Shown piece after piece: positions 14,483-38,853 of a stretch of 50,453 nt of DNA (positions are counted from its first letter, which is position 1; each line of letters opens with the position of its first letter). Below the pieces are notes generated by a model that ran no database searches, was not told the origin of the DNA, and saw only the letters and a list, made by a program, of their open reading frames with translations. The DNA comes from Brachyspira sp. G79 (GTDB lineage: Bacteria > Spirochaetota > Brachyspiria > Brachyspirales > Brachyspiraceae). A program made the translations under genes and the position numbers. The stretch is from the NCBI RefSeq assembly GCF_002379365.1, contig NZ_JQIU01000008.1, forward strand, positions 326,131 to 376,583. The letters are read 5' to 3'.

Positions 14483-15442
14483 ATGAGTAATTTATATGAT
14501 TGTATTATAATAGGCGGCGGTCCATCTGGTTTAGCTGCTGCTGTATATTCTGCCAGAGCAAGATTAAAAACAGTTCTTTTTGAGAAAGGAAGTTTCGGCG
14601 GTCAAATTAGTATAACCGATGAAATAGCTAACTATCCAGGTTTTTATGAAGAGTCAGAAGAAGGAAGACACCCTAAACATCTTATAAATAAAATGATAGA
14701 ACAGGCTAAAAAATTTGGTGCTGAAATAGAACATAAAGAAGTTACAGATGTTAAGTTGGATGGAAAAATTAAAGAGGTAACATTATCTGATGGAACTGTT
14801 TATCAATCTAAAGTAGTTATAATAGCTACAGGTGCTCAGCCTAGAAAATTGGGCTGTAAGGGTGAATTAGAATATACAGGTAAAGGAGTTTCTTACTGTG
14901 CTACTTGTGATGCTAACTTCTTTGAAGGTATGGAAGTTTTCTGCGTTGGAGGAGGCGATACAGCTGTAGAAGAAGCTATGTATTTGTCTAAATTTGCTAG
15001 AAAAGTAACACTTATAGTAAGAAAAGATTACGTACGCTGTGCTAATTCTATCGAAGAAAAAGCTAAAGCAAATCCAAAGATTGAAATAAAATTTAGAACA
15101 GAACTTTTAGAACTTAAAGGTGATGGAATAGTTGAATCTGCTATATTCTTAAACAATGAAACAGGTGAAAAATATGAATATAAAGCAGATGAAGAAGACG
15201 GAACATTTGGTGTATTTATTTTTGTTGGTTATGTTCCTTTGACAAAATTGTTTGAAGGTAAAGTAGCTATGCAAGATGGATATATTCTTACAGATGAAGA
15301 GATGAAAACAAATGTTGAGGGTGTATTTGCTTGCGGAGATTTAAGACCAAAAATGTTAAAACAGGTTATTACTGCAGCAGCAGACGGAGCAATAGCTGGT
15401 ATTTCAGCAAACAAGTATATAGAAGAGAAATTTGTTGAATAA
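14483..15442 (+). CDS. trxB: Thioredoxin reductase
   Basis: FAD enzyme that passes NADPH electrons to thioredoxin, the reductant of the glycine reductase selenoprotein GrdA. The 319 residues show the FAD dinucleotide fold IIGGGPSGLAAA at 9-20, the redox pair C139-A-T-C142, the NAD(P)H fold VGGGDTAVEEA and the C-terminal FAD motif GVFACGDLR. AAGGAG precedes the ATG. In many clostridia a thioredoxin gene follows; here none does, and the position is taken by the UGA-containing leader. Confidence 0.95.
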   Translation: MSNLYDCIIIGGGPSGLAAAVYSARARLKTVLFEKGSFGGQISITDEIANYPGFYEESEEGRHPKHLINKMIEQAKKFGAEIEHKEVTDVKLDGKIKEVTLSDGTVYQSKVVIIATGAQPRKLGCKGELEYTGKGVSYCATCDANFFEGMEVFCVGGGDTAVEEAMYLSKFARKVTLIVRKDYVRCANSIEEKAKANPKIEIKFRTELLELKGDGIVESAIFLNNETGEKYEYKADEEDGTFGVFIFVGYVPLTKLFEGKVAMQDGYILTDEEMKTNVEGVFACGDLRPKMLKQVITAAADGAIAGISANKYIEEKFVE

Positions 15443-15463: not shown

Positions 15464-15491
15464 TTGACAATGATAAAAAAAATGTTATATA
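15464..15491 (+). promoter_or_regulatory. Promoter of the grdEABCD operon
   Basis: TTGACA (15464-15469) followed by a TATATA-type -10 at about 15486-15491 (spacer 16), 22 bases after the trxB stop. It would start a transcript near 15498 that runs through the leader ORF and the terminator before grdE. Confidence 0.65.
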
Positions 15492-15526
15492 TTATATAGT
15501 GTAAATAAAAATATTAAAAAGGATAT

Positions 15527-15697
15527 ATGTTAATGAAATTTAATAGCTGAGTAAATAATTTATCTTGCGGTGCAATGAGTAATTTATTTTATAGTTCTGC
15601 TGTAGAATTATATGGTTTGCAAAAAGCGAATTTCTCAGGGATTAAAGTTTATGTATATCTATTGTTGTGTGATTTTAAGAGCAGAATATATTTTTAA
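15527..15697 (+). CDS. Candidate selenocysteine leader peptide (in-frame UGA at codon 8)
   Basis: Small ORF of 56 codons if UGA is read through. AAAAAGG at 15516-15522 precedes the ATG at 15527; a second in-frame ATG is at 15533. Codons are M L M K F N S, then UGA at 15548-15550, then 48 further codons without a stop to TAA at 15695-15697. A SECIS-like hairpin follows the UGA. The peptide (...VNNLSCGAMSNLF...) resembles no family I know and has no thioredoxin WCGPC motif. The stop codon lies in the loop of a terminator hairpin, as expected for a regulatory leader. It could instead be a tiny selenoprotein or a decayed gene. Confidence 0.6.
15552..15591 (+). promoter_or_regulatory. SECIS-like hairpin in the grd leader
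   Basis: Apical stem TTGC-GGT-GCAA (15565-15575) over an A/U lower stem (15552-15563 with 15579-15591, one bulge and one mismatch). The GGT loop begins 18 bases after the UGA, exactly the spacing in both grdB genes, and the ten bases TGCGGTGCAA are identical to theirs. A loop beginning with G at this distance fits bacterial SECIS rules. Confidence 0.7.
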
Positions 15698-15723
15698 AAG
15701 AATATGTTTTTGCTCTTTTTTTT
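15677..15723 (+). terminator. Intrinsic terminator/attenuator before grdE
   Basis: AAGAGCA (15677-15683) pairs with TGCTCTT (15711-15717), extendable by three weak pairs, and is followed by eight T (15716-15723). The leader ORF covers the 5' arm and stops inside the loop. grdE begins 56 bases further on, so termination here would silence the whole operon. Confidence 0.75.
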
Positions 15724-15778
15724 GATGATATAATTATATGTACATATTTTATATAAAAAATAAAAAAAAGGAGACTAT

Positions 15779-17065
15779 ATGAAGTTAGAGATAGGCGAGA
15801 TTTATATTAAAGATATAAAGCTTGACAAAATTTCAAAAGTCGAGAACGGTGTGCTCTATGTAAATGTAGACGAGGTTACAAAAATAGTACTTGAAGATGA
15901 CAAACTAAAAAGTGTAACAGTTGATGTAGCTCGTCCTGGAGAATCAGTACGTATTACTCCAGTAAAAGACGTAATAGAGCCTAGAGTAAAAGTTGATGGA
16001 AGAGGCGGTGTATTTCCTGGTATGATATCTAAAGTAGATACAGTTGGAGAAGGTAAAACTCATGTATTAAAAGGTGCTGCTGTAGTTACTTGCGGTAAAA
16101 TAGTTGGTTTCCAAGAAGGTATCATTGATATGACAGGACCTGGAGCTGATTATACACCATTCTCAAAACTTAATAATTTATGTTTGCTTATAGAGCCAAT
16201 AGAGCCTATAGAAAAACATGATTATGAAGCTGCAGTAAGAGGAGCAGGTTTAAGAGTAGCTACTTATTTAGGAAAGTTAGCTAAAGATTTAAAACCTGAT
16301 AATACTTACAGTTATGAGACTAAACCTATATTTGAACAAGCAGCAATGTATCCTAATTTGCCAAAAGTAGGTTATATATATATGCTTCAAACACAAGGTC
16401 TATTACATGACACTTATGTTTATGGTGTAGACGCTAAAAAAATAGTTCCAACATTCATTTATCCAACAGAAGTAATGGACGGTGCTATAGTAAGCGGTAA
16501 CTGTGTATCAGCTTGTGATAAAAATACAACTTATCACCATTTGAATAACCCAGTAATTAGAGCTTTATATGAAAAACATGGTAAAGATATTAACTTTATG
16601 GGTGTTATAATAACAAATGAAAATGTATTCTTAGCTGATAAAATGCGTTCATCAGATTGGTCATCAAAATTAGCTAAATACTTCGGATTAGATGCAGTAA
16701 TCATCTCAGAAGAAGGATTTGGTAACCCAGATGCTGACTTGATAATGAATTGTAAAAAAGCAGAAGCATTCGGTATTAAAACTTGTATTATAACAGATGA
16801 ATATGCTGGAAGAGATGGTGCTTCACAATCTTTAGCAGATTCAGATGTATCAGCAAATGCTGTGGTAACAGCAGGTAATGCTAATGTAGTTATTAATTTA
16901 CCAAAAATGGATAAAATAATAGGTATGTTAGATTATACAGATAAAATAGCAGGCGGATTTGACGGATCATTAAAACCAGATGGTTCTATTGAAGCAGAAA
17001 TACAAGTTATTACAGGTGCTACAAATGAATTAGGTTTTAATAAATTTAGTGCTACAGGACTATAA
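15779..17065 (+). CDS. grdE: Glycine reductase component B, alpha/beta proprotein
   Basis: Substrate-binding part of component B, which binds glycine through a pyruvoyl group. The 428-residue proprotein is cut to two subunits at an Asn-Cys bond; here N241-C242 lies in SGNCVSAC, and the Cys becomes the pyruvoyl end. Other family blocks are VRITPVKDVIEPR, the FPG-MISKVDTVG region and EEGFGNPDADL. A strong AAAAGGAG precedes the ATG. It starts the operon grdE-A-B-C-D and lies behind the candidate selenium attenuator. Confidence 0.95.
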   Translation: MKLEIGEIYIKDIKLDKISKVENGVLYVNVDEVTKIVLEDDKLKSVTVDVARPGESVRITPVKDVIEPRVKVDGRGGVFPGMISKVDTVGEGKTHVLKGAAVVTCGKIVGFQEGIIDMTGPGADYTPFSKLNNLCLLIEPIEPIEKHDYEAAVRGAGLRVATYLGKLAKDLKPDNTYSYETKPIFEQAAMYPNLPKVGYIYMLQTQGLLHDTYVYGVDAKKIVPTFIYPTEVMDGAIVSGNCVSACDKNTTYHHLNNPVIRALYEKHGKDINFMGVIITNENVFLADKMRSSDWSSKLAKYFGLDAVIISEEGFGNPDADLIMNCKKAEAFGIKTCIITDEYAGRDGASQSLADSDVSANAVVTAGNANVVINLPKMDKIIGMLDYTDKIAGGFDGSLKPDGSIEAEIQVITGATNELGFNKFSATGL

Positions 17066-17119: not shown

Positions 17120-17599
17120 ATGAGTATTTTAAATGGTAAAAAAGTAATTATCATTGGCGATAGAGACGGCATTCCTGGAGAAGCTATCAAAGCATGCGTT
17201 GAAACAGTAAAAGACGCAGAAGTTTTGTTTGCTGCTACGGAGTGTTTTGTTTGAACAGCCGCAGGAGCGATGGATTTAGAGAATCAAAAGAGAATTAAAG
17301 AATTTGTAGAAAAATTTGGGGGAGAAAATATAGTAGTATTATTTGGTGCTGCAGAAGCAGAAGCTACAGGTTTAGCAGCTGAAACAGTAATGATAGGTGA
17401 CCCTACTTATGCTGGTGCTTTAGCTGGAGTAGAATTAGGCTTAGCAGCTTATCATGCCGTAGAACCAGAATTCAAAGAAGCAGTAGATCCTGCTGTTTAT
17501 GAAGAACAGATTGGTATGGCAGAAATGACATTAAATGTAGATGAAATCATCGCAGAAATTAAAAAAATGCGTGATGAAAACTGCAAATATTTAAAATAA
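17120..17599 (+). CDS. grdA: Glycine reductase selenoprotein A (contains selenocysteine)
   Basis: Small selenoprotein that takes the carboxymethyl group from component B and hands it to component C. The gene must be read through the in-frame TGA at 17252-17254, giving 159 residues with Sec45 in the redox motif C-F-V-U followed by TAAGAMD. Standard gene callers would start at 17270 and lose the active site. TAGGAGG at 17107-17113 precedes the ATG at 17120. The upstream half ([19 protein letters not shown]) and the acidic C terminus fit GrdA. GrdA is shared with the second component-B set downstream. Confidence 0.96.
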
Positions 17600-17748: not shown

Positions 17749-19047
17749 ATGCCACAATATAAAATAGTTCATTACATTAATCAGTTCTTCGCTAATATCG
17801 GCGGAGAGGAAAAAGCTGATATAGCTCCAGAAAAGAGAGACGGAGTTATAGGTCCTGGTGCAGGATTACAAGGCGAATTAAAAAAAGTAGGTATTGATGC
17901 TGAAATAGTTGCTACTGTTATATGCGGTGACTCTTATTTCAATGAGAATCTAGATAAAGCTAAAGCTGAAGTTTTAGAAATGATAAAAAGCTATAGCCCA
18001 GATTTAGTTATTGCTGGTCCTGCTTTCAATGCGGGACGTTATGGTACAGCTTGTGGTACTGTTGCTAAAATGGTACAAGATGAATTAAAAATTCCAGCTG
18101 TTACTGGTATGTACGTTGAAAACCCAGGTGCAGATATGTTTAAGAAAGATGTTTATATCGTTTCTACTAAAGATTCTGCTGCAGGTATGAGAAATGCTTT
18201 ACCAGTTATAGCTAAATTAGCTTCTAAACTTCTTAAAAAAGAAGAAATTGGAACTCCAGATGTTGAAGGATATATTCCAAGAGGAATACGTAAAGTATTA
18301 TTCAGAGATAAAATTGGTGCTGAAAGAGCTGTTGATATGCTTATACAAAAACTTAAAGGTGAAGCATTTACTACAGAATATCCAATGCCAGACTTTGACA
18401 GAGTAACTCCTGGTGAAGCTATTAAGGATATTACTAAAGCTAAAATAGCATTAGTAACAAGCGGTGGTATAGTACCATCAGGAAACCCAGACCATATAGA
18501 GTCTTCTTCTGCTTCTAAATATGGAAGATATTCTATAGATGATATGGGAGAAACAGCACATGGCGGTTATGACCCTACTTATGCTAACCAAGACCCTAAC
18601 AGAGTATTGCCTGTTGATGTATTAAAAGAGATACAAAAAGAAGGTAAGATAGGCGAGCTTTATCCTTATTACTATACTACAGTTGGTAACGGTACTTCAG
18701 TTAAAAATTCTAAAGCATTTGCTACTGAATTCGCTCAGACTTTAGTTAAAGATGGAGTTCAGGCTGTTATATTAACATCAACCTGAGGAACTTGTACTCG
18801 TTGCGGTGCAACGATGGTTAAAGCAATAGAAGCTACTGGAATACCTGTAGTTCATATTTGTACTATTGTTCCTATATCCTTAACAGTTGGTGCTAACAGA
18901 ATAGTTCCAGCAGTTGCTATACCTCACCCTCTAGGCAATCCTAACATGTCTAAAGAAGATGAGAAAAAATTAAGACGTACATTGGTTGAGAGAGCATTGA
19001 AAGCTTTAACAACTCCTGTAGATACACAAACAGTTTTTGAAGATTAA
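17749..19047 (+). CDS. grdB: Glycine reductase component B gamma, selenoprotein GrdB
   Basis: Selenoprotein subunit of glycine-specific component B. Its selenol attacks the activated glycine and forms Se-carboxymethyl-selenocysteine. Reading through TGA at 18784-18786 gives 432 residues with Sec346 in the motif U-G-T-C-T-R-C-G-A-T. The SECIS hairpin CGTTGC-GGT-GCAACG is at 18799-18813. The N terminus (YKIVHYINQFFANIGGEEKAD) is typical of the family. GGAGG lies before the ATG. Without recoding it would be split into a 345-residue piece and a 77-residue piece. Confidence 0.96.
18799..18813 (+). promoter_or_regulatory. SECIS apical hairpin of grdB
   Basis: Perfect 6-bp stem CGTTGC / GCAACG with loop GGT, starting 12 bases after the TGA; the loop is 18 bases from it. 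The same 15 bases occur in the second grdB-type gene at 26735-26749. Confidence 0.85.
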
Positions 19048-19148: not shown

Positions 19149-19194
19149 ATTATTTCATTCATTAAATAAAAAATAAATATTGGAGATTGAAAAG

Positions 19195-20781
19195 ATGAGT
19201 TATGCTGTATTAAAAGCTGCTGCTTATGCTATAGTACATGCCCCTGATATGGTTGTTAATAATGGTACTACGCAAACAGTAGAAAGAGAAGTTAATCCTG
19301 ATTCGGACTACTTGAAAAAACTTAAAGAACATCTTAGACCTTTTGAAGATGTTGTTAATTATGCACCTAACCAAACTTATATTGGTAATCTTCACCCAGA
19401 AGAATTGAAAAAACTTGCTTCTCAAGTATCTGAAGAAGTTAAAAAAGCTGGCGGAAGCTGGATAGGTGTGCCTTGTAAAGGTGAAAGAAATGGTAAATTC
19501 GGTGAAATTTTTGCTGAAGATGAATTCATCTTTATGATGAAAATATCTGATGTTTTTGAATTAGTATACTTAGAAGCTGAATTTGAGAAAAAAATGAAAG
19601 ATGCCTATATTGCTTCAGAATCTAAATATAAAACAGAAGAAGAAATCAATAAAGATTTAGCTCAGGTAAAATGTGAGACTAAAATCGATGAAATAGAAAA
19701 ATTAATAAAAGAAGAACATGCTGAAGGTTTATATTTCAATGAAAAATTAGTAGGCTGTATTAAAAGGGCACATGATGTTGATATTAACTTAAGCGCTCAT
19801 GTTATTTTTGAAAACTTAGCGGTTAAAGCTTCTGGCATTATGGCTTTAAAAGAACTTATTAGAAAGAAAAATATCGATCCTAAAACAGTAGATTTGGTTA
19901 TAGAATGTTCTGAAGAGGCTTGCGGTGATATGAACCAAAGAGGAGGCGGTAATTTCGCTAAAAGTATAGCTGAAGTTGCTGGAATACCTAATGCTACAGG
20001 TTTTGATATTAGAGGATTCTGTGCTGCTCCTTCCCATGCTTTGGTAACTGCTGCTTCTTTAGTAAAAGCTGGCTCTTATAAAAATGTAGTAATAGTTGCA
20101 GGAGGTGCCACTGCTAAATTGGGTATGAATGGTAAAAGCCATGTAACTAAAAATCTTCCTATTATTGAAGATATATTGGGTGCTTTTGCTGTACTTATCA
20201 GTGAGAATGACGGTGTACATCCAGTAATAAGAACAGATGTACTTGGAAGACACACTGTTGCTACAGGCTCTGCTCCTCAGGCTGTTATGACATCTTTGAT
20301 AGTAAATCCGTTAGAAAAAGCAAACTTAAAAGTTACAGATATAGATAAATATACTGTAGAAATGCAAAACCCTGATGTAACTAAACCTGCAGGTGCTGGT
20401 GATGTTCCAGAAGCTAATTATAAAATGATAGCTGCTATTGGTGTTAAAAAAGGTGATATAGAAAGAAGTCAAATAGCTGAATTCGTTGATAAGCATGGTA
20501 TGTCTGGTTGGGCTCCAACTCAAGGTCATATACCATCTGGAGTGCCTTATTTAGGTTATGCTATTGAAGATATTATGTCTGGTAAAATTAATCGTGTAAT
20601 GCTTATAGGTAAAGGTTCATTATTCTTAGGAAGAATGACTAATCTTTTTGACGGTATATCTGTTATTATCGAAAAAAATAACGGTGATAAATCTACAAGC
20701 GAAGGTGTTTCAAAAGAAGAAGTTAATAAACTTATTGCTAATGCTATGAGAGATTTCGCTAAAAGTATGTTAGGCGAGTAA
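19195..20781 (+). CDS. grdC: Glycine reductase component C, beta subunit
   Basis: Part of component C, which converts the selenoether-bound acetyl intermediate to an acetyl thioester and then, with phosphate, to acetyl phosphate. The 528-residue protein has a thiolase/FabH-like segment with a conserved Cys in DIRGFCAAPSHALVTAASLV, and the later AGAGDVPEANYKMIAAIGVKKGDI block typical of GrdC. The start at 19195 follows GGAG at 19182-19185; a TTG at 19180 overlaps that ribosome site. grdD begins 11 bases after its stop. Confidence 0.95.
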   Translation: MSYAVLKAAAYAIVHAPDMVVNNGTTQTVEREVNPDSDYLKKLKEHLRPFEDVVNYAPNQTYIGNLHPEELKKLASQVSEEVKKAGGSWIGVPCKGERNGKFGEIFAEDEFIFMMKISDVFELVYLEAEFEKKMKDAYIASESKYKTEEEINKDLAQVKCETKIDEIEKLIKEEHAEGLYFNEKLVGCIKRAHDVDINLSAHVIFENLAVKASGIMALKELIRKKNIDPKTVDLVIECSEEACGDMNQRGGGNFAKSIAEVAGIPNATGFDIRGFCAAPSHALVTAASLVKAGSYKNVVIVAGGATAKLGMNGKSHVTKNLPIIEDILGAFAVLISENDGVHPVIRTDVLGRHTVATGSAPQAVMTSLIVNPLEKANLKVTDIDKYTVEMQNPDVTKPAGAGDVPEANYKMIAAIGVKKGDIERSQIAEFVDKHGMSGWAPTQGHIPSGVPYLGYAIEDIMSGKINRVMLIGKGSLFLGRMTNLFDGISVIIEKNNGDKSTSEGVSKEEVNKLIANAMRDFAKSMLGE

Positions 20782-23921: not shown

Positions 23922-24083
23922 ATGATGTATCTTGATTACTCAACATTAGGCATCGCATCGCATCGCATCGCATCGCATCGCATCGCATCGCATCGCATCG
24001 CATCGCATCGCATCGCATCGCATCGCATCGCATCGCATCGCATCGCATCGCATCGCATCGCATCGCATCGCATAATATTTTAA
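23922..24083 (+). CDS. Possible short ORF through the GCATC repeat, (IASHR)8
   Basis: Frame of 53 codons from ATG at 23922 to TAA at 24081-24083: MMYLDYSTLG, eight copies of the pentapeptide I-A-S-H-R, then IIF. The ATG lies at the predicted transcript start, so it would be read as a leaderless message; no ribosome site exists. The pentanucleotide never makes a stop in any frame, so openness alone proves little. It may be only a repeat artefact. Confidence 0.25.
   Translation: MMYLDYSTLGIASHRIASHRIASHRIASHRIASHRIASHRIASHRIASHRIIF
23950..24073. repeat. Pentanucleotide tandem repeat (GCATC)n, about 25 units
   Basis: Twenty-four perfect units plus four bases, without a single interruption, in the 5' leader of the second grd pair. 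A tract this long and pure is expected to change length by slippage. Five is not a multiple of three, so each unit change shifts any frame crossing it. Confidence 0.97.
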
Positions 24084-24332: not shown

Positions 24333-25655
24333 ATGGAATTACATATTGGAAATTTTTATGTAAAAGACATCAAATTTGGTGATAAGACCAAGTTTGAAAA
24401 CTCTACTTTAACAATCAATAAAGAGGAGGCTTTAAGTATTGTTAAAGAAGACAATCATATTACTGAGGCAGATATTATTATTGTTAAGCCTGGTGATATG
24501 GTTAGAATAGTTCCTGTTAAGGAGGCTATAGAGCCAAGATGCCGTTTAGACGGTAAAACTATTTTTCCGGGTGTTTTAGGTCCTATGTACAGAGCAGGTG
24601 ACGGAGTTATGCATGCTCTTAAAAACTGCAGTGTATTGGCGGTAGGAAAACATTGGGGCGGATTCCAAGATGGATTAATAGATATGGGAGGAGAAGGTGC
24701 TAAATATACATATTATTCAAGTCTTCTAAATGTATGTTTGGTTGCTGATACCGATGAAGAGTTTGAAAAAAGAGAACAGCAAAAGAAAAACAAAGCACTT
24801 CGCTGGGCTGGTATGAGACTTGCTGAATATTTAGGAAATTGTGTAAAAGAACAAAAACCTGAAGAGGTAGAAACTTATTCTCTTCCAAGTATAACAGACG
24901 CTTCAAGAGATGCTAAATTAGCTAAAGTAGCTTTAGTACTTCAGGCACAATCACAGATGGAAAATGACGGATATAATGATTTAGTTTATGGTTGGGATAC
25001 AAACAGAATGCTTCCAACTTTAATGCATCCTAATGAAATATTAGGCGGAGCTGTTATATCAGGTTCATTTATGCCTTGTTCTTCTAAATGGTCAACTTAT
25101 GATTTTCAAAATTTTCCAATGATCAAAAAATTATTTTCAGAACATGGAAAAACTATTAATTTTTTAGGAGTTATTTTTTCTAATCTTAATGTTGCTTTAG
25201 ACCAAAAAGAAAGAGCTGCATTATTCGTAGCACAAATAGCTAATAATATAGGGGCTGATGCTGCTATAGTAGCTGAAGAAGGATACGGTAACCCTGATGC
25301 AGACTTTATTGCATGTATAGTTGCTTTAGAAGATGCTAAAGTAAAAACTGTTGGTTTGACTAATGAATGTACTGGAAGAGACGGAGCTTCTCAGCCATTG
25401 GTAACATTAGATGAAAAAGCAGATGCTATAGTATCATGTGGAAATGTATCTGAGATGATAGAACTTCCTCCTATGCCTACAGTTATAGGAGAATTAGAAT
25501 CATTGGCAAGGGACGGATTGTCAGGCGGATGGAGTAATGATGCTGTGTTAGGTCCTTCAGTTAGAGAAGATGGTTCTATTATTATGGAAAATAATGCTAT
25601 GTTCTGCGGTGATATGGTTGTAGGTTGGTCTACAAAAACTATGGCAGAGTTTTAA
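24333..25655 (+). CDS. grdI: Component B alpha/beta-type subunit of a second reductase, probably betaine
   Basis: Paralogue of grdE, 440 residues, sharing MVRIVPVKEAIEPRCRLDG, EEGYGNPDADF and TGRDGASQ. Where GrdE has the cleavable Asn241-Cys242, this protein has Ser-Phe in SGSFMPCSSKWS, and the nearest Cys is three residues later. Loss of the pyruvoyl site fits a substrate with a quaternary or secondary nitrogen, because betaine cannot form a Schiff base. The BCCT transporter downstream supports betaine over sarcosine (GrdG). The subtype call is therefore inference; membership in the family is clear. Confidence 0.78.
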   Translation: MELHIGNFYVKDIKFGDKTKFENSTLTINKEEALSIVKEDNHITEADIIIVKPGDMVRIVPVKEAIEPRCRLDGKTIFPGVLGPMYRAGDGVMHALKNCSVLAVGKHWGGFQDGLIDMGGEGAKYTYYSSLLNVCLVADTDEEFEKREQQKKNKALRWAGMRLAEYLGNCVKEQKPEEVETYSLPSITDASRDAKLAKVALVLQAQSQMENDGYNDLVYGWDTNRMLPTLMHPNEILGGAVISGSFMPCSSKWSTYDFQNFPMIKKLFSEHGKTINFLGVIFSNLNVALDQKERAALFVAQIANNIGADAAIVAEEGYGNPDADFIACIVALEDAKVKTVGLTNECTGRDGASQPLVTLDEKADAIVSCGNVSEMIELPPMPTVIGELESLARDGLSGGWSNDAVLGPSVREDGSIIMENNAMFCGDMVVGWSTKTMAEF

Positions 25656-25666
25656 GGAGCTTAAAA

Positions 25667-26989
25667 ATGAAAAAAGGTATTTTATATATAAATCAATTTT
25701 TTGCTGGAGTAGGCGGAGAAGACATGGCTGATTATAAGCCTGAAATTAAATCAGAGTTAATCGGACCTGCTGCGGCATTTTCTAAGCATCTTAAAGGAGA
25801 GGTAGAAATTACTCATACTATTATATGCGGAGATAATTTCATCGGAAGTAATCCAGATGAGGCTTTGAATATTATAATTGGATTTTTAAAAGATAAAGAG
25901 TTTGATATATTTTTTGCAGGTCCTGCTTTTAGAGCTGGACGTTACGGTGTTGCATGTGGTAAAGTATGTAAGGCTGTAAAAGATCAATTCAAAGTTCCTG
26001 TAATCACTTCTATGAATGATGAAAATCCTGGTGTTGATATGTTCAAAAAAGATATGTACATATTTAAAGGTGGTGCTTCTGCTGCTGCTATGGGTAAAGA
26101 TACTTTAGCTATGAGTAAGTTTGCTGTTAAACTTTTAAAAGGTGAAGAGACTTTACCTGCTTCAGAAGAGGGCTATTTTGGAAGAGGTGTTAGAAAACAA
26201 ATTTGGACAAAAGATAATGTTCCAGCTACTGAAAGAGTTATGGATATGCTTCTTAAAAAGATTAAAGGAGAGCCGTTTACTTCTGAGCTTATTATACCTA
26301 AAAAAGAATTAGTACCTATAGCAAAAGCTGTAACAAAAGAAGAATTAAAGAAATTAGAAGTAGCTATAGTAACAAGCGGTGGTATAGTTCCAGTAGGAAA
26401 CCCAGACAGAATACAATCTGCATCTGCTACTAAATGGGGTAAATATGATATATCTAATTTAGATGATTTGGTAGAAGGTGAGTATATGACTATACATGCT
26501 GGTTTTGACCCTGCTGCTGCTAATGAAGACCCAGACAGAATAGTTCCGCTTGATGTTTTAAGAGCTTATCAGAAAGAAGGAAAAATAGGCGGCGTATATA
26601 AATATTTCTATTCTACAGTTGGTACTGGTACTACTCAGGCTGAAGCTGCACGTATGGGAAGAGAAATTGCTGATGAATTAGTGGAAGCTGGAATAAAAGT
26701 TGCTTTACTTGTTTCTACTTGAGGAACTTGTACTCGTTGCGGTGCAACGATGACAAAAGAAATAGAAAAAGCTGGAATAACTATAGTTCAGATTGCCAAC
26801 TTAATACCTGTTGCAAAAAGTGTTGGTGCTAACAGAATGGTTCCTGCTATATCTATACCATATCCTTTGGGCGATCCTGCAACTACTAAAGAAGAACAAT
26901 GGGCTTTACGTTATCACAGAGTTGGTGTTGCTCTTGATGCTTTATGTACAGATATAAAAGAACAAACTGTATTTGAAGTAAAAATATAA
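25667..26989 (+). CDS. grdH: Selenoprotein B of the second reductase, probably betaine-specific
   Basis: Paralogue of GrdB with selenocysteine. Reading through TGA at 26720-26722 gives 440 residues with Sec352 in U-G-T-C-T-R-C-G-A-T. The SECIS apical hairpin at 26735-26749 is identical to that of grdB. The start at 25667 has AAGGAG overlapping the stop of the previous gene; upstream starts overlap it. There is no grdA, grdC or grdD copy here, so these components must come from the first operon. Betaine as substrate is inferred from the BCCT neighbour; sarcosine (GrdF) is the alternative. Confidence 0.8.
26735..26749 (+). promoter_or_regulatory. SECIS apical hairpin of the second grdB-type gene
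   Basis: CGTTGC-GGT-GCAACG, identical to the grdB element, with the loop again 18 bases after the TGA. Confidence 0.85.
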
Positions 26990-28630: not shown

Positions 28631-29391
28631 TATATATTCCTTTAATATTTTTACACATTCTTTATTATCAAGCATTTCTGCCCACATTAATGCTGTTGTT
28701 CCGTAATTATCTTTTTCGTATAAATCGCTTCCATTTTCTAATAACAGTTTTAATACATCAATACTATTACATTCAGCAGCAAGCATTAAGCAGTTATTTC
28801 CATCGCTGTTTTTAGCATTTATGTCTGCTCCGTTTTTTATCAAAACTCTCATATTATCATACAAATTGTTATAAGCAGCCCACATAGCACAGCTGCTTTT
28901 ATCTTCATCCATTTCATTAATATCTGCTCCATTATCTATTAAGAGCTGTATAATTTCAGGGTTATTTTTTTTTGCTGCCCATATAATAGGTTTTTCTCCA
29001 TATGTATTTTTTATATTTATATCAGCATTATTATCTAATAATATTTTAACAGCATCTATTTTTCCGTTTCCAGATGCCCACATAATAGGTGTTACGCCTT
29101 TTTTATCTTGTATATTTATATCAGCATTATTTTCTATGAGTATATTAACTATATCTATTTTATCATTTTCTATAGCAAACATTATAGCTGATTTACCGTT
29201 AATATCTTTTTATTTATATTAATTTCTTTTTTTATTAGCTCTTCTGCTATATCATTAAATCCAAAATAAGAGGATAACATTAAGGCATTAGTATCCTTAT
29301 AAAATACTGCATTATTTATATTTAGTGTTTCATTAATTAAGTTATTTATATCAAGGCTCTTTATTAAATTTATAATATTTTCATTTTCCAT
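28625..29391 (-). pseudogene. Ankyrin-repeat protein gene with a single-base frameshift
   Basis: Two overlapping frames make one ankyrin protein of about 255 residues. The first (from 29391) reads MENENIINLIKSLDINN...KKEININKK and then leaves frame; the second reads MFAIENDKIDIVNILIENNADINIQDKKGVTPIMWASGN to the end. The break is at a run of five T (29207-29211, A5 in the message). One extra A would give NKKDINGKSAIMFAI, exactly the expected ankyrin sequence. About six ankyrin repeats follow. There is no signal peptide, so it is probably cytosolic. It could be a true mutation, a switching tract or a sequencing error. Confidence 0.75.
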
Positions 29392-38307: not shown

Positions 38308-38853
38308 ATGAAAAATATTTATTTAGTTTTATTTATAGTTTTGTCATTATTTTTTGTTTCATGCGGAAAGGATAAAAGTGCTATAGATAAGGCAACTGAT
38401 AAAATAAATGAAAAAATAGATGATGCTTCAGATGCAGCTAAAGATGGTGTAAAAAAAGCAGGCGGGGCATTAGAAGATGTATCAAAAGCTATAGAAAATA
38501 TTGACACTGATAAATTATTAGAAGACGCTTCAAAAGCTATAGAAAATATTGATACTGATAAATTATTAGAAGATGCTTCAAAGGCTATAGAAAATATTGA
38601 TACTAATAAATTATCAGAAGATATTTCAAAAGCTATGGAAAATATTGATACTAGTAAATTACTAAATGAAGCTGCAAAAGCTATGGAAAATGTTGACACT
38701 AGTAAATTACTAGATGATGCTGCAAAGGCAATAGAAAATATTGACACTAACAAATTACCAGAAGATATTTCTAATGCTCTAAAAAATATTGATACTGGTA
38801 AATTATTAGATGATCTTTCTAAAGCTATAGAAAATGCAAAAAAATCTAATTAA
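38308..38853 (+). CDS. Small lipoprotein with seven 17-residue helical repeats
   Basis: A 181-residue predicted lipoprotein: hydrophobic signal, lipobox FFVSC with Cys19, then a charged helical region and about seven tandem repeats of the type SKAIENIDTDKLLEDA. The repeats are also clear in the DNA as a 51-base period (about 38470-38830). They should form long amphipathic helices, perhaps a coiled coil in the periplasm, in the manner of Lpp-type proteins; no catalytic motif is seen. AAGGAT precedes the ATG. Its function is unknown. Confidence 0.7.
   Translation: MKNIYLVLFIVLSLFFVSCGKDKSAIDKATDKINEKIDDASDAAKDGVKKAGGALEDVSKAIENIDTDKLLEDASKAIENIDTDKLLEDASKAIENIDTNKLSEDISKAMENIDTSKLLNEAAKAMENVDTSKLLDDAAKAIENIDTNKLPEDISNALKNIDTGKLLDDLSKAIENAKKSN

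Follow-up and report, generated by a model that had tools for sequence, protein, structure and literature searches.

We report a leader in front of the glycine reductase (grd) operon of Brachyspira sp. G79 that is probably a ribosome-mediated transcription attenuator, sensing the recoding of a leader UGA codon as selenocysteine (Sec). The way it is conserved suggests that transcription of the grd genes would depend on the ability of the cell to make selenocysteine. In the window, i.e. the whole stretch of 50,453 nucleotides that was analysed, a spacer of 336 nt separates trxB (14483-15442) from grdE (15779-17065), and promoter, leader ORF, SECIS and stem-loop all lie inside it. The features of the leader and of the genes that follow it are these:

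15464..15493, + strand: sigma-70-like promoter, TTGACA-18-TATATT; a weak candidate, kept in only part of the genus.
15519..15523, + strand: Shine-Dalgarno-like AAGGA of the leader ORF, read from the sequence.
15527..15697, + strand: leader ORF of 56 codons plus TAA; frame open in 12 of 12 species, peptide unconserved.
15548..15550, + strand: in-frame UGA, leader codon 8; invariant in 12 species.
15565..15575, + strand: SECIS apical hairpin UUGC-GGU-GCAA (TTGCGGTGCAA), 15 nt past the UGA, as in grdB.
15677..15717, + strand: intrinsic terminator hairpin with the leader TAA in its loop; the stem covaries.
15718..15723, + strand: U tract of the terminator, from sequence and fold.
15779..17065, + strand: grdE, start ATG 15779; first gene 3' of the putative attenuator and not a selenoprotein gene itself.
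17120..17599, + strand: grdA, selenoprotein gene with a single in-frame UGA.
17749..19047, + strand: grdB, selenoprotein gene; Rfam SECIS_4 at 18787-18824.
19180..20781, + strand: grdC, an ORF named by the grd cluster gene order in PMC2897892.
20793..21968, + strand: grdD, an ORF named from its cluster position.

The 56-codon ORF with UGA at codon 8, described in an initial annotation of this DNA, was found where it had been placed. It translates as MLMKFNSUVNNLSCGAMSNLFYSSAVELYGLQKANFSGIKVYVYLLLCDFKSRIYF and ends at TAA 15695-15697; ATG 15533 is an alternative to the start at ATG 15527. The SECIS-like hairpin with grdB spacing was likewise correctly located, the grdB-like loop lying at 15565-15575. 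A search for TGA-N15-TGCGGTGCAA with at most one mismatch returned three sites in the 3.29-Mb genome, namely the leader and two grdB-type genes, and none with the reversed control. With a relaxed pattern, 26 members of the genus yielded 12 leaders and otherwise only grdB-type sites (TGAGGAACTTGYACTCG...), the control again giving none. The leader UGA thus has the context of a functional Sec codon, since its spacing to the SECIS and the loop itself match those of grdB; the loop deviates in four pilosicoli-like species (G011, G013, G014 and G016), in whose leaders GUU replaces the GGU (or GGC) seen in grdB genes and in the remaining leaders. Like SECIS_4 (RF01990) of grdB, the leader element carries the same apical UUGCGGUGCAA at the same distance from the UGA, but its lower stem and codons differ, and Rfam gave no SECIS_4 match at the leader (below the E = 5 list), matching only the two grdB-type genes in this genome. 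The genome encodes selA, selB, selD and tRNA-Sec, a complete Sec machinery, and no SECIS-like site of the leader type was found at its selA or selD.

A SECIS-like element, reportedly described by Thanbichler and Boeck in 2002 (cited in PMC8124441), controls selAB in E. coli and acts on translation. It uses SECIS and SelB for gene control tied to Sec supply, as the Brachyspira leader would; unlike the leader, it lacks a UGA-containing reading frame that overlaps a terminator. By this precedent, SelB carrying Sec-tRNA might bind the leader SECIS as a mere sensor, with feedback repression and no readthrough. We regard this as very improbable, as it gives no reason for an in-frame UGA or for a frame that stays open 20-38 codons past the SECIS, and the leader precedes a selenoprotein operon, not selAB.

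Thirteen Brachyspira genomes with a trxB-grdE junction were covered by the genus search, and 12 of them keep the whole leader, with UGA as codon 6-12 of a short ORF, the SECIS loop, an open frame and a strong terminator. In 12 of the 13 species the loop follows the UGA by 15 nt and is nearly identical to that of grdB. This comparison of spacers had been set beforehand as one that could refute the attenuator, and the outcome, with UGA, SECIS spacing, open frame and terminator kept in 12 of 13 and the peptide drifting, supports the attenuator interpretation as far as sequence comparison reaches. From the SECIS to the terminator, in-frame stops are absent from all 12 leaders, while each other frame has 1-7 of them. 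Outside the SECIS and terminator dN/dS is about 1 or above, and the changes are spread evenly over the three codon positions. The tree of the leader stretch has a summed length of 5.4 substitutions per site. In simulated neutral evolution all 12 frames were open in 0 of 1500 runs, again in 0 of 1500 with branch lengths halved, and in 0.13% with them quartered, rough figures with a clear direction, from a tree that was built on the same short stretch and without indels.

A frame that stays open while its product drifts points to a regulatory leader peptide and not to a small selenoprotein. The combination of UGA, SECIS and open frame is typical of a selenoprotein gene, and the N-terminal MKFN.UVNN.SCGAM is similar in most species; a true small selenoprotein with a function of its own, the terminator being merely its 3' end, is nevertheless improbable. 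The conserved N-terminal letters overlap the SECIS and arm A of a helix described below, the very divergent G001 shares almost nothing except the SECIS, and an ordinary gene stops before its terminator, not within it. No purifying selection on the peptide was detected around or after the Sec (past the SECIS, dN/dS is near 1 or higher) and no Pfam match was obtained for the peptide, and the small selenoprotein was rejected on the former ground. Many clostridia have a thioredoxin-like ORF of about 110 aa at the equivalent position, which could make the leader a decayed fragment of trxA; decay of trxA or grdB, or chance, is however scarcely credible. UGA, spacing, frame and terminator are kept despite the wide divergence, and the sister genus has neither trxA nor a leader there. 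A decayed fragment was rejected on the lack of a Pfam match together with the frame being kept open.

The terminator stem, given as 7 bp in the initial annotation, proved to be longer, with 18 pairs, one bulge and -14.8 kcal/mol; the leader TAA does lie in its loop, as annotated. A terminator hairpin is found in each of the 12 leaders (-10 to -21 kcal/mol), and its eight outer pairs form in all 12 species. The stem covaries: four of these pairs vary, with two-sided changes among them (G-C to A-U, C-G to U-A and A-U to G-C). In six species the leader frame stops within the terminator loop or at its edge, in the other six past the hairpin, and in none before it. In eleven species 129, 144, 141 or 120 nt, each divisible by 3, separate the UGA from the terminator; in G001 the distance is 88 nt. 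In all 12 species, as in attenuation of the pyrBI type, the predicted leader ORF reaches into or past an intrinsic terminator and the frame is open in the absence of selection on the peptide. When RNA was folded with ribosome footprints blocked, the terminator had a probability of 0.75-0.98 with the RNA free or a ribosome at the UGA, and of 0.00 once the ribosome occupied the frame stop or the hairpin itself, a loss that follows from the geometry of the blocked footprint.

The relation of the leader frame to grdE bears on whether a readthrough ribosome acts elsewhere, either by shielding the mRNA from Rho or RNases or by coupling to grdE, with the hairpin as a processing or 3'-end element. The frame extends into the grdE start in G001 and stops 26-27 nt short of grdE in G011, G013 and G016, which would suit coupling; untranslated RNA past the UGA could also be a target of Rho or RNase. 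In six species, on the other hand, the leader stop lies 75-86 nt upstream of grdE, which there has its own strong Shine-Dalgarno AAGGAG, and the hairpin with its U tract covaries in all 12, with the frame stop always at or past its loop. Action at these other levels is therefore unlikely, though it is the least implausible of the alternatives considered.

The initial annotation lacked a covarying long-range helix, A:A', which encloses the leader start codon and the UGA:

15518..15557, + strand: helix arm A, containing the Shine-Dalgarno sequence, start codon and UGA; from individual folds, complementarity and covariation.
15629..15667, + strand: helix arm A', ending about 10 nt short of the terminator; from folds, complementarity and covariation.

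In most lineages A and A' are more complementary than shuffles, with z-scores of -3.7 to -1.4 in eleven leaders and +0.1 in G016 (mean -2.3). Of the 16 positions in a hand-made register for 11 species, ten pair in every species; at two, both bases change (A-U to G-C and C-G to U-A), and at the other four the only changes are to wobble pairs. The case for the helix is good but not final, since the two double changes probably arose on one branch and the regions were picked after the folds had been viewed. No rival antiterminator was found in silico, A' being unpaired with the terminator arm in all 12 leaders. A switch of the trp type was rejected on this account, and the simplest reading is that, after recoding, a ribosome covers the terminator, the mechanism of pyrBI.

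We infer recoding of the UGA, termination, its prevention by recoding, the effect of selenium and the role of A:A' from these arrangements. Without charged Sec-tRNA, due to low selenium or a saturated Sec machinery, the ribosome would terminate at the UGA, some 130 nt short of the terminator. The leader would then fold, A:A' closing over the leader start site, and the terminator hairpin would form and halt RNA polymerase before grdE. If SelB and Sec-tRNA are present at the SECIS, the ribosome would insert Sec, follow RNA polymerase for about 43 more codons and cover the 5' arm of the terminator, so that grdE-A-B-C-D would be transcribed. Once transcribed, A:A' would shut the start site behind a ribosome that had stopped at the UGA, and only the pioneer ribosome would test the selenium state. 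The leader may be a self-closing, one-shot checkpoint, at which Sec recoding is tried by a single pioneer ribosome before RNA polymerase has left the leader. A stop at the UGA would let A:A' lock the leader against another attempt, whereas Sec insertion would carry the ribosome past A' and the terminator and release the operon; we offer this refinement tentatively, at somewhat below even chances.

Closely following ribosomes are known to repress intrinsic terminators, and early coupling of ribosome and RNA polymerase is not assured unless the polymerase pauses (PMC4824070). The ribosome decodes UGA as Sec slowly, with a pause (PMC4513850), and recoding reaches at most 30-40% in E. coli. The slow decoding poses a kinetic problem, as the ribosome pauses and the terminator begins only 150 nt past the leader start codon. 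The leader is U-rich.

A promoter is present where it had been annotated, with -35 TTGACA at 15464-15469 and TATATT at 15488-15493, an 18-nt spacer and 11 of 12 matching positions. As a match alone it is weak, since the scan found fewer sites than shuffles did (1 observed, 4.0 on average), and it is only partly conserved and not a single fixed promoter of the genus. The extended -10 TGTTATATT recurs in five relatives and is absent from G001 and the pilosicoli-like group; in these the leader lies closely behind trxB and would act on transcripts from upstream. Another extended -10, TGATATAAT, lies just past the terminator at 15726-15740 of the window (G000) and likewise in G008 and G010, and could be a bypass promoter around the terminator in these three.

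The genome in which the junction has no leader, G019, is a reduced Brachyspira-type genome of 2.0 Mb with a trxB-grdE gap of 35 nt. In G011 (L053) an in-frame grdE-grdC fusion of 739 aa removes grdA and grdB and leaves the leader intact, presumably a recent event. These two cases, the GUU loop of the pilosicoli-like species, the missing Rfam score and the -10 past the terminator are counted against the putative attenuator, as are the slow decoding and the limited recoding of UGA. Of the three selenoproteins that the initial annotation would place under the gate, two, GrdA and GrdB, are encoded directly downstream; the gene of the third (25625-26989) follows another gap, which has a terminator-like hairpin of its own.

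Among known systems, the proposed attenuator appears closest to pyrBI attenuation by mechanism and to the SECIS-based control of selAB in E. coli by signal. As in the E. coli pyrBI attenuator, the leader ORF enters the terminator, a close ribosome would prevent the hairpin and an antiterminator is not needed. pyrBI differs in sensing UTP through RNA polymerase pausing, where the Brachyspira gate would be recoding of UGA as Sec, and the Brachyspira leader adds the paired helix over the leader start. The trp and his attenuators share with it a leader peptide that drifts apart from the sensing codon and a reading of the supply of a specific tRNA, but they work by stalling, with hairpins that exclude each other, and are on when charging is low, whereas in Brachyspira no antiterminator was found and the genes would be on when Sec-tRNA is available. 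The glycine riboswitch (RF00504) before clostridial grd operons is also a leader with a terminator ahead of a glycine reductase operon; it differs in sensing glycine by an aptamer, which is present upstream in clostridial loci and gave no match in the Brachyspira leader or the window. CUCAGG in A' resembles the 3' motif of the riboswitch by eye, but a riboswitch was rejected as Rfam gave no match.

The leader was not found in two genomes of the sister genus, ahead of second grdE copies, or before grdE in about 77 loci of spirochaetes, clostridia, fusobacteria and others. The detector recovers 7 of 7 Brachyspira leaders tested, and the search covers leaders with a SECIS of the Brachyspira type; its matches in the roughly 77 other loci were one poor candidate and three loci in which Rfam finds a glycine riboswitch. 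Given its absence from the sister genus and from other grdE loci, the design seems to have arisen within Brachyspira. An attenuator that senses stop-codon recoding was not found described in the literature searched, which comprised open-licence papers, and to our knowledge no earlier attenuator is known that reads the success of such recoding.

If the proposed mechanism is true, the 21st amino acid controls its own use at the level of transcription. Truncated GrdA and GrdB would be useless, and the mechanism would explain how they are avoided under selenium scarcity. The leader would also be a natural readout of Sec-tRNA supply and a possible selenium reporter, and the combination of UGA, SECIS, drifting open frame and terminator would provide a search template.

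A second grdE, about 65% identical and mostly behind a transporter-like gene, occurs without a UGA leader in G002, G001, G020, G018 and G016, so that in these species one operon may be gated and the other not. Across the 26 Brachyspira genomes selB is found in all and tRNA-Sec above the cut-off in 25, though grd is missing from about half of them; selenoproteins reported in PMC2897892 include a thioredoxin and a glutathione peroxidase.

Repeats of several kinds were observed elsewhere in the window. Upstream of the second grdE-type gene (24333), 24 perfect copies of GCATC at 23950-24073 lie inside a possible ORF from ATG 23922 (MMYLDYSTLGIASHRIASHR...). The array is not present at the equivalent place in G003 and G008, and a five-base repeat within a frame could be phase-variable. 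Further tandem arrays, with 7.6 copies of 48 bp at 38469-38836 and about 2 copies of 99 bp at 28976-29219, resemble coding repeats.
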